Below, one piece after another: positions 48,769 to 60,059 of a DNA stretch of 64,000 bases. A program made the position numbers and the translations under genes. The notes beneath the pieces were generated by a model. The model did no database searches, was not told the origin of the DNA, and was given only the letters and a program-made list of their open reading frames with translations. Position 1 is the first letter of the stretch. Each line of letters opens with the position of its first letter. The stretch is from Medicago truncatula (taxonomy: Eukaryota > Streptophyta > Magnoliopsida > Fabales > Fabaceae), in NCBI RefSeq assembly GCF_003473485.1, contig NC_053047.1, positions 34,148,972 through 34,212,971 on the forward strand. The letters run 5' to 3'.

Positions 48769-48988
48769 GAGAATGGAGAACGGTTTTATGTTATGTGTTA
48801 TTGAAGAAGGAAGTGGATGAAGATGAGTTTGAATGATTCGGCGGCGGGGTGGGGACTTGGAAGGTTTCCATGGCTGGTTTGGGGTTTTTTTACAGCTTAT
48901 TTTCAACTTAGCCACTCAAGTATTACAACTTTTTTTTTTTTTTTTTTTTTTTAAATAATTTACCCATTTTTTCTAGAGGAAATTTGAT

Positions 48989-49981
48989 GTTGACACATTT
49001 CATTAGGCTGAGGCACACAAATAAAATATGATTTTGCCCACTCGACAGTTAACTCTCGAGGAAAACCTCGTTAGTTAACTGCCGAAAATTATGTTTCATC
49101 AGATGAAACAGTCACCTGCTCCCCTACACAATATTTCATCATCAACTTTCATACCACTTTCATCCAAACCCCAAATCCAAAAAAAAAATTCATCAAATCT
49201 TGCTCCAAAATCATTCAAGCATCAAGCATAGGAGGTATCAACACACTTTTGACGTAAAAAACAGGTATTGAGCATTTTAATCTGTTCATTTTTTGGCTTT
49301 GTTATGGGTTTTTACGTCAATTTACGTAGAACTCTGTCATGGAAATCCTCGGTAGCCTACTACCGAAGTAAATTTCGGTAGTTTACTGCCGAGGAAAACT
49401 TGTGAAAAATTTTCACAACGAAAAAATGGCAGCATGCCATTTTTTTCCAATTTTTTTTTTTAATTCATTATGACATTGATGTTTATGCATTAGTTAGTTG
49501 TTAATTCATATTTTTGTGTTGTTTAATTATAGTAATGGTAGAGAACGCGGAAGATGTTCCGGGAGAGACAAAACAAAATTTTGTCGAAATTTTCGGAGAT
49601 GTAAAACCGCCTAAGGTTGAAGCGGAAGATGTCATATTTTTGTGTTGTTTAATTATGGACACTTTGTAACGTTTTGATGAATTTCAAACTTTTGTGTAAT
49701 TTGAACCAAATGTCGGTTTATTTAATTATGGACAATTGTAAAAGATATTGTATTTTTCTTGTTTATGACCGAATTTCTATGTTGTATGATTTATACTGCC
49801 TTTGGAAATGCTCTGATTTAATTACATGTAAAAATTGGTCGAAAAATGGGCTTTAGAATTATGCAGAACCCACTGTCTGCATAATTGTTTTCCTCAGTTA
49901 ACTATCGAGGTTTTTCTCGGCATGTCGATGGGATAAAAGCGTATTTTACTCGTGTGACACAGCCTTATGCAATGTGTCAAC
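48989..49981. mobile_element. Large foldback element with GTTAAC palindromic modules
   Basis: Termini gttgacacatttcat at 48989 and the complement ending aatgtgtcaac at 49981 match over about 45 bp with gaps, including 'ggctg.g.cacac.a.taaaata'. Self-complementary modules such as cagttaactctcgagg, gttagttaactgccga and ggtagtttactgccgagg recur near both ends. The middle has a short possible coding scrap (ATG 49536, MVENAEDVPGETKQNFVEIF) with no known domain. No clear target duplication. Related to 59186-59545. Confidence 0.65.
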
Positions 49982-50848
49982 AACAATTTTCTTTTTAGAG
50001 TGAATATTTTACCCTTTCTTTCTGATATTTTTAAAAGAGATTAATTTATTTATTTTTTTACAATAAAGTTAGTTTCATTCAAATGTTGAAATAACAAGAG
50101 TAGAATTAAATTAATCGTGTTCCCTAAAAAAAACTGACGTGAGTTTGGATATTCCTCATCCATATTTCAAAGTCAAGGACATGTTATCAATACACATGGA
50201 AATTTCATAAGTCAAAAGTGCGTTAACAAATCAAACTCTTTCGGGTCTTGTTAACAAGTGTCTCAGGACACTTTGTAAGCATTGATTACACGTTTTTTCA
50301 TAAATGCTTACTACTTATGGTCATTAAACCATGTTCGGGGAGACATTCGTTAACATTTCTCAAATTTTAATTCTAACGACCAAACTTAATTCTTCCAACT
50401 ATGGACAATGGTGAAAAATAATGAAAGATACATCGTCTTTGATTGCATTCATCCTCGGAGAAAAAAAATGTTATTGGTGATCATTGATTCCGACTATATG
50501 TTGTTTTGAAATGACTGATTCAATCACATATTGACAATTTGTATGGCTGAGATAATGTTAAATTTGATGATAATCAGAATAAGCTCTTTATTTAAAATAT
50601 GGTATCGAAAAAAGAGTCATTCATAAATATTTCATCAAACACAGGTAGTATAAACTTGAAGTCGATTAAAAATAACAATAGAACACAAATGAAGAAACAA
50701 AACAAGAAAATAATAAAAAACTTCAACACAATTATTAGACCTCAAACCATAAAGCGATGGAGTGATCAAAACACAATTTTCATGGTGGCTTTCTAAGAGG
50801 GCACTTAGAGGTTCTTTCTTTAATTGAAGTTGTGATCACATAAATCTA

Positions 50849-58935: not shown

Positions 58936-59185
58936 AATACTTGGCTTTTTAAAGCTTATCGAAAGAAAAAAAAATGGCTTAAGAAGATCATACGTTTAAA
59001 AAAAGATAGTTATGAAATTTTGTTGGAGTACCATTTTTATGTTTTTATATTGTTAAGAAAAAAAGATACATTATGTATTTTTTTAAGAATCTTTCCAAAA
59101 AAAATGTATTTTTGAAGAATATATTGTTATATATAATTTTTTTTTTGTTAAGAATATATAGTTATGTAGATACATGAGAATTGCT

Positions 59186-59545
59186 GTTCCCACATATGGT
59201 AGGCTGTGCCAAACGAGTAAGTTACGGAAATGCCCTTCGGTAGTAAACTGCCGAAGTTTTTAGGAAATCGGCGGCAGTTAACTGCCGAGGAAAACCTCGG
59301 TAGTTAACTGCCGAGGAAAACTCAACATAACCAGAACCCATAACCACAGGTAGTTTTTAGAATGATGAAGATTTTCTCGGCAGTTAACTACCGAGGTTTT
59401 CTTCGGCAGTTTTCTTCGGTAGTTAACTACCGAGGTTTTCCTCGGCAGTTAACTGCCGCCGGTTTCCTAAAAACTTCGTTAGCAAACTGCCGAAGGGTAT
59501 TTTCATATTTTACTCGTGTGGCACAGCTAAACAACATGTGGGAAC
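59186..59545. mobile_element. 360 bp foldback element of repeated GTTAAC palindromes
   Basis: Inverted arms of about 135 bp (gttcccacat at 59186, complement ending atgtgggaac at 59545) leave a centre of about 60 to 80 bases. Five exact GTTAAC-centred modules of the form cggYagttaactRccgag occur, plus two decayed ones with taaac or gcaaac cores, joined by 'gaaaac' or 'gttttc' spacers. Each module is itself nearly self-complementary. Flanks share 'aatt.gct' but no clean duplication. It lies 208 bp before the ATG of the cysteinyl-tRNA synthetase copy. Confidence 0.8.
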
Positions 59546-59752
59546 ATCAATTCGCTAGATACATTGATTAATTTTTTTTTTGAAATTGTTTAAAATAAAA
59601 TTAAAAGTGAAAAAAGAGTATAAAAAGCGAAAGAAAACAAGTCGAGAGAGAACAGAACATCGAAACCTCTCTCTCTTCGCCGCCACAAAACCTATCGCAG
59701 AACTCGTTACTAAGAGCGATCGACTACAAAAACTTATTTTTTCCATTAAAGT

Positions 59753-60059
59753 ATGGAAAGTTTTCTCTCAAAAATTGATAAACCGCAACCCTTTGGTACT
59801 TCCGGCGCTAACAACGGCGGTAAGGGAAGTGAAACTCCTGGTAATGGTGTAGTCAAACAGAATAATGTCAAACCAAAAAGAAAAAAGAAACGAGTTGAAT
59901 CATTGCAGTTATACAATTCCAAGAATAACGAGATGGAGGTCTTTGAACCTGAAGTAAAAGGTAAGGTTTCCATGTATGTCTGTGGAGTCACATCTTATGA
60001 TTACAGTCATCTCGGGCACGCACGTGCCGCCATTTCTTTTGATATCCTCGTTAGGTATC

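Follow-up and report, generated by a model that had tools for sequence, protein, structure and literature searches.

The 64,000-nucleotide stretch of Medicago truncatula DNA analyzed here (the window) contains a 380-bp element at positions 59176–59555, consisting of two terminal inverted repeats (TIRs) of about 145 bp and a short centre. Arm complementarity and end alignment place the left TIR, with three internal modules, at 59176–59322 (+ strand) and the right TIR at 59408–59555 (− strand). Identical 9-mers (TAGATACAT) flank the element at 59167–59175 and, as a perfect copy, at 59556–59564, and because they lie exactly there, 59176 and 59555 are taken as the true borders. The main arms (59203–59322 and 59408–59527; 120 nt) are 88% complementary and the outer arms (59178–59200 and 59531–59553) 87% complementary; end-to-end alignment of the outer 150 bp of the left and right arms gives 83% identity (126 of 151 columns). 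Folded as DNA, the single strand reaches −138.5 kcal/mol compared to a mean of −43.0 in 100 shuffles (z −22.9). The right end of the window copy reads GCGAATTG, and the usual ends in its relatives are GAGAATTG...CAATTCTC. The element has the features of a MITE or foldback element in being short, non-coding, multi-copy and mostly inverted repeat. Nine-bp duplications and long TIRs are the hallmark of MULEs, and the element, having both, is therefore a short non-autonomous foldback MULE that is little more than two ends, with 11 further near-full-length relatives. The next gene, whose ATG is at 59753, starts 197 bp beyond its right border and encodes a class I (C) tRNA synthetase domain of the cysteinyl type (tRNA-synt_1e; E 3.4e-12 and 8.6e-50 in two exons).

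Sequence matches define an array of modules within the element, in which the core CGGYAGTTAACTRCCG is present exactly five times: as modules 2 and 3 of the left TIR (59272–59287 and 59298–59313), as an inner module in the right half (59378–59393), and as modules 3 and 2 of the right TIR (59417–59432 and 59443–59458). Two diverged cores correspond to module 1 of the left TIR (59238–59253; variant CGGTAGTAAACTGCCG), located 62 bp in from the terminus, and to the variant module 1 of the right TIR (59477–59492); a third, partial core (CGGCAGTTTTCTTCGG) is at 59404–59419. With up to two mismatches allowed there are eight module matches in the window and none in 100 dinucleotide shuffles; six are in the 380-bp element and two (49069 and 49376) in a related second element. 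The original prediction of five exact and two diverged cores inside a larger inverted repeat is thus borne out. It had described the two outer modules as decayed; they are diverged, but look like subfamily variants, since CGGCAGTTTGCTACCG and CGGTAGTAAACTGCCG are found repeatedly across many copies. The proximity to a gene start also stands, although the distance proposed (208 bp) had been counted from the prediction's own end coordinate and is replaced by 197 bp.

The second member of the group (48979–49991, + strand) is longer (1,013 bp) and more decayed, with TIRs, a duplication matching at eight of nine positions (TTTCTAGAG/TTTTTAGAG) and diverged modules at 49043, 49069, 49376 and 49892. 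Within it, 49535–49654 (+ strand) includes the beginning of the transposase frame, to judge from its likeness to the frame of a coding element at locus L037 (24 of 34 residues identical, E 1e-14 in a single comparison); by itself this stretch has no Pfam match.

The genome from which the window derives (430 Mb in 42 contigs) was searched for related elements. The 380-bp element as query gives 85 matches (40 of 1,309 candidates scored), a number that differs from a copy count, both strands of one palindromic place being counted separately. Among the scored hits, 11 of 11 other near-full-length copies have a perfect 9-bp duplication by a final script demanding nine matches of nine (an earlier pass tolerated one mismatch), in keeping with the 9–11 bp duplications of the MULE superfamily, as are the long (~145-bp) TIRs. 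Identity of aligned bases, gaps excluded, has a median of 96.8% among the 12 short copies (range 84.7–99.7%) and is 90.6–96.6% between the window copy and the others. At one locus (L007:1502–1919) the target duplication of one element is directly followed by the terminus of another, so that two members seem to have inserted next to each other.

Related elements encode a transposase, which also places the group in the MULE superfamily. The 4.6-kb element at L037:4002–8626 resembles the short copies in its termini and has a perfect 9-bp duplication (TTCTTCCTT); its transposase frame contains a MULE domain (PF10551; E 8.1e-27) and an AFT match (E 5.9e-8), with a sub-threshold match to FAR1 (E 2.6e-5; bit score 25.3, cut-off 28.1). 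The MULE domain is similarly found in the frame at L110 (E 6.8e-27). Genome-wide the frame has at least 91 matches, the query's own place included; the best 14 of these, again with the query, have 98–100% protein identity, protein identity is 95–99% for the 15 coding copies that match best apart from the query, and five of the first 16 contain a 995-residue open frame without stops. A module-bearing terminus is present upstream of the frame in all 16 coding loci fetched, which are the best 16 of the at least 91 matches rather than a random sample. Several coding copies fall short of three terminal modules (e.g. one at one end of the L037 element). In 15 of the 16 loci (L108–L123) there are one to three extra modules (with up to four mismatches) ~160–210 bp before the frame; these follow at 26-bp spacing when multiple, and lie ~345–460 bp from the terminus and outside the TIR array. 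The C-terminal part of the transposase has a weak match to OTU cysteine proteases, beyond the usual FAR1-MULE-SWIM plan (L037:5096–6571 and L110:1–2895, both − strand; E 0.032–0.033, under the curated cut-off); comparison with the PDB gives OTUD3 at E 0.033.

Foldback MULEs with modular TIRs have been published, and MuTAnT of M. truncatula is the closest published kind. The available excerpts of its description present a 292-bp element, the first described, with 144-bp modular TIRs, 9-bp duplications, TA-microsatellite targets and frequent location near genes, together with AutoMuTAnT, a putative autonomous partner encoding a mudrA-like transposase (PMC4486113). To the extent of those excerpts, the window element shares with MuTAnT the short foldback plan, modular TIRs of like length, 9-bp duplications, a transposase-encoding partner and a place near a gene. 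Unlike MuTAnT, which has the terminus GGGGTTTGCTAGAACA and inserts into TA repeats, it has the terminus GAGAATTG and a target (TAGATACAT) that is not a TA repeat. The exact MuTAnT terminus is present at 71 places in the genome (reversed control, 0), and the module was found in none of the 10 fetched; with terminus and target differing as well, membership of MuTAnT is rejected. FARE1 of Arabidopsis, a foldback element bounded on both sides by long palindromic repeats, is now classed as a MULE according to the same excerpts (cited in PMC4486113), and its likeness to the window element is in this plan, by description and not by sequence. As far as the accessible portions of the sources extend, maize Mutator/MuDR has TIRs containing a transposase site and promoters (PMC3310237), shares with the window element its MULE nature, 9-bp duplications and long (~215-bp) TIRs (PMC2774946), and has a MURA site that is a conserved ~32-bp motif, with no palindromic array mentioned there (PMC3310237).

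Literature searches with the module strings returned no match, and those with terminus and TIR strings returned, in the text accessible to the search, only an unrelated match to a 13-base string. The module-bearing TIR is likewise not described in the accessible parts of the literature that concerns genes derived from FAR1 or MULEs carrying OTU or Ulp1 domains, in those of PMC8599713, or in those on Drosophila Foldback4 (PMC2955051). Within the texts searched, the present module and terminus are without a relevant match. The dispersed copies with terminal repeats and target duplications that the original prediction called for do exist, but its suggestion of a nameless, novel design does not survive, because the kind is published, as MuTAnT and FARE1 in the excerpts cited above (PMC4486113), and related copies encode a transposase.

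The exact module occurs at 2,273 places in the genome (reversed control, 0), and two samples relate these to the TIR. The first comprises 38 exact modules at 24 loci of contig C1, taken from the first 50 places listed with 12 omitted (three in L036, six in L037 and three at 8.54 Mb). A terminus-like sequence (up to 6 mismatches of 20) lies within 260 bp outward of 35 of the 38, and an inner TIR block (up to 5 mismatches of 19) accompanies 26; shuffled controls give 0 of 38 for each. Three of the 38 lack a terminus-like sequence nearby, and for most of this sample a spread of the module independent of the transposon is rejected. Because these loci had been picked for holding the module, a second sample was chosen by terminus with modules disregarded, consisting of 40 consecutive entries of the 100 listed from 725 exact genomic places of a 20-base terminus pattern, some of them both ends of one element. 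At least one module (up to four mismatches) is present in 38 of these 40 termini compared to 1 of 40 in the shuffled control, and the two module-less termini (L087 and L088) have a remnant of module 1 only. Of 105 instances scored with up to five mismatches, 36 begin after 61–64 bp (33 of these after 63 or 64 bp), 38 after 87–97 bp and 31 further in, the usual offsets from the terminus being 63–64 bp for the first module and then mostly 93–97, 119–124 and ~150 bp. Judging by these samples, the 2,273 places are mostly parts of TIRs at fixed distances from the terminus, such that one transposon group accounts for most of these exact palindromes.

Conservation was measured on the 40 terminus-chosen ends; an earlier profile of 29 ends was dropped, its loci having been selected for an exact module. 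Identity is 0.847 in module columns and 0.761 in the remaining TIR columns (p 0.0017 by permutation), and the difference is pronounced for A/T columns (0.899 compared to 0.742, p 0.0003), with C/G columns in modules not significantly above C/G columns elsewhere (p 0.30); these p values are optimistic because the columns depend on one another and the copies are related by descent. By position, modules 1, 2 and 3 have identities of 0.888, 0.875 and 0.778, the last alone barely exceeding the background of 0.761. C>T or G>A changes make up 102 of 200 substitutions in 109 module instances, a share that fits decay by methylation and may mask constraint on C/G columns. A TIR block at ~28–46 bp (GGCTG...CAC.AGTAA) has columns conserved as well as those of the modules.

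The two arms of the module show little sign of changing together. In the 105 modules of terminus-chosen copies, paired cells are at chance for nearly all core pairs, including the Y/R pair (63 paired, 67.9 expected). Pairing is in excess at pair −2/17, outside the core (values reached by 4 of 2,000 shuffles for module 1 and by 76 of 2,000 for module 3 and those further in). Module 2 shows a weak excess at pair 7/8 (21 of 2,000) and, in 23 of its 38 copies, a persistent T.C mismatch. Since the arms show almost no compensation, the dyad sequence appears to be conserved rather than a hairpin. Genome-wide, the 2,273 places comprise 1,195 CAG..CTG, 344 TAG..CTA and 734 mixed variants where simple arithmetic under independence gives ~1,073, 222 and 977; symmetric forms are in excess, which can result from a mixture of subfamilies and module positions. 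A conserved dyad without covarying arms is the pattern expected of a putative dimer-bound site.

Judged from sequence and by analogy, the somewhat favoured interpretation is that the module array offers putative dyad sites to the transposase, or to a partner of it, and thereby aids recognition and pairing of the ends. The FAR1/MULE-type transposase of the coding copies would presumably mobilise the group in trans, it or a partner would bind the arrayed dyads in the TIRs, and binding would help the ends to be recognized and paired, comparable to the THAP-domain sites in the TIRs of Galileo. The TIRs of this P-superfamily element of Drosophila are long and repetitive within, and the portions available of its description give several sites there for the DNA-binding domain of its transposase, the first footprinted at TIR positions +63 to +80 and others located in the repeats (PMC3688188). 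On that partial description, the first MULE module, usually at approximately bases 64–80, overlaps the position of the footprint, although Galileo is of another superfamily with another DNA-binding domain and the analogy is functional only. The conserved block at ~28–46 bp could compete as the main transposase site. Given the extra modules before the frame in coding copies, the protein that binds the ends, or else a host factor, may also act on the transposase promoter. An extension in which one dyad has two jobs, transposase assembly at the ends and self-regulation before the frame, is possible but doubtful; since the same protein would bind the dyad in both places, the thousands of TIR modules would titrate the transposase.

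Other roles for the modules account for parts of the same evidence. They may be host transcription-factor sites by which each TIR serves as promoter of the transposase gene, with the short copies merely inheriting them. The palindrome CAGTTAACTG contains two overlapping TAACTG motifs, putative sites of, for instance, the MYB type. That one to three modules precede the frame by ~160–210 bp in all but one of the 16 coding copies fetched agrees with a promoter function, as does the presence of promoters and cell-cycle enhancer motifs in maize Mu TIRs according to the accessible part of one source (PMC3310237). However, modules are present at both ends, and copies without a gene still have them as far from the terminus as usual, such that a promoter role is rather unlikely to be the explanation. 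Alternatively, the array could have arisen when modules expanded in tandem within an ancestral TIR, and now be without function and kept by recent common descent. Many copies do look young, to judge from the median identity of the 12 short copies (96.8%) and the 95–99% protein identity of coding copies, but modules and their spacing survive in L040, L048, L053 and L090 despite diverged termini and TIR interiors, and modules are overall better conserved than adjoining columns; this explanation is less probable still. Least probable is a cruciform or hairpin in DNA or RNA for which the palindrome itself is conserved. Of the two roles put forward in the original prediction, transposase recognition sites and a cruciform, the former is the better supported as a putative function and the latter is weakened because module arms show almost no compensatory change. 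Such a structure would fit the high folding stability of the complete element (z −22.9) and the excess of symmetric variants, yet core pairs of the 105 modules are at chance, the T.C mismatch persists in most module 2 copies, and the excess can stem from subfamily mixing.

To our knowledge, the recognition of long TIRs by MULE transposases is poorly understood beyond maize. Transposase binding to the array offers a testable hypothesis for the reading of plant MULE ends, with defined dyads at defined distances and near-identical coding copies to supply the protein.

In the element at L036, which belongs to the same MULE group by its module-bearing TIRs and has an 8-of-9 target duplication, a plant mobile domain (PF10536, E 4.4e-26; L036:1375–2256, − strand) is present where other copies have the transposase frame, and probably represents a host-type gene riding in a MULE; a similar frame is at L035:1422–2252, PF10536 having been scored for L036 only. 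At L039 and L048 the same module core has other flanks (e.g. AGCGGTAGTTAACTACCGCT) and is 65 bp in from terminus-like sequences that are very diverged (6 and 5 mismatches of 20, respectively), hinting at a more distant subfamily.
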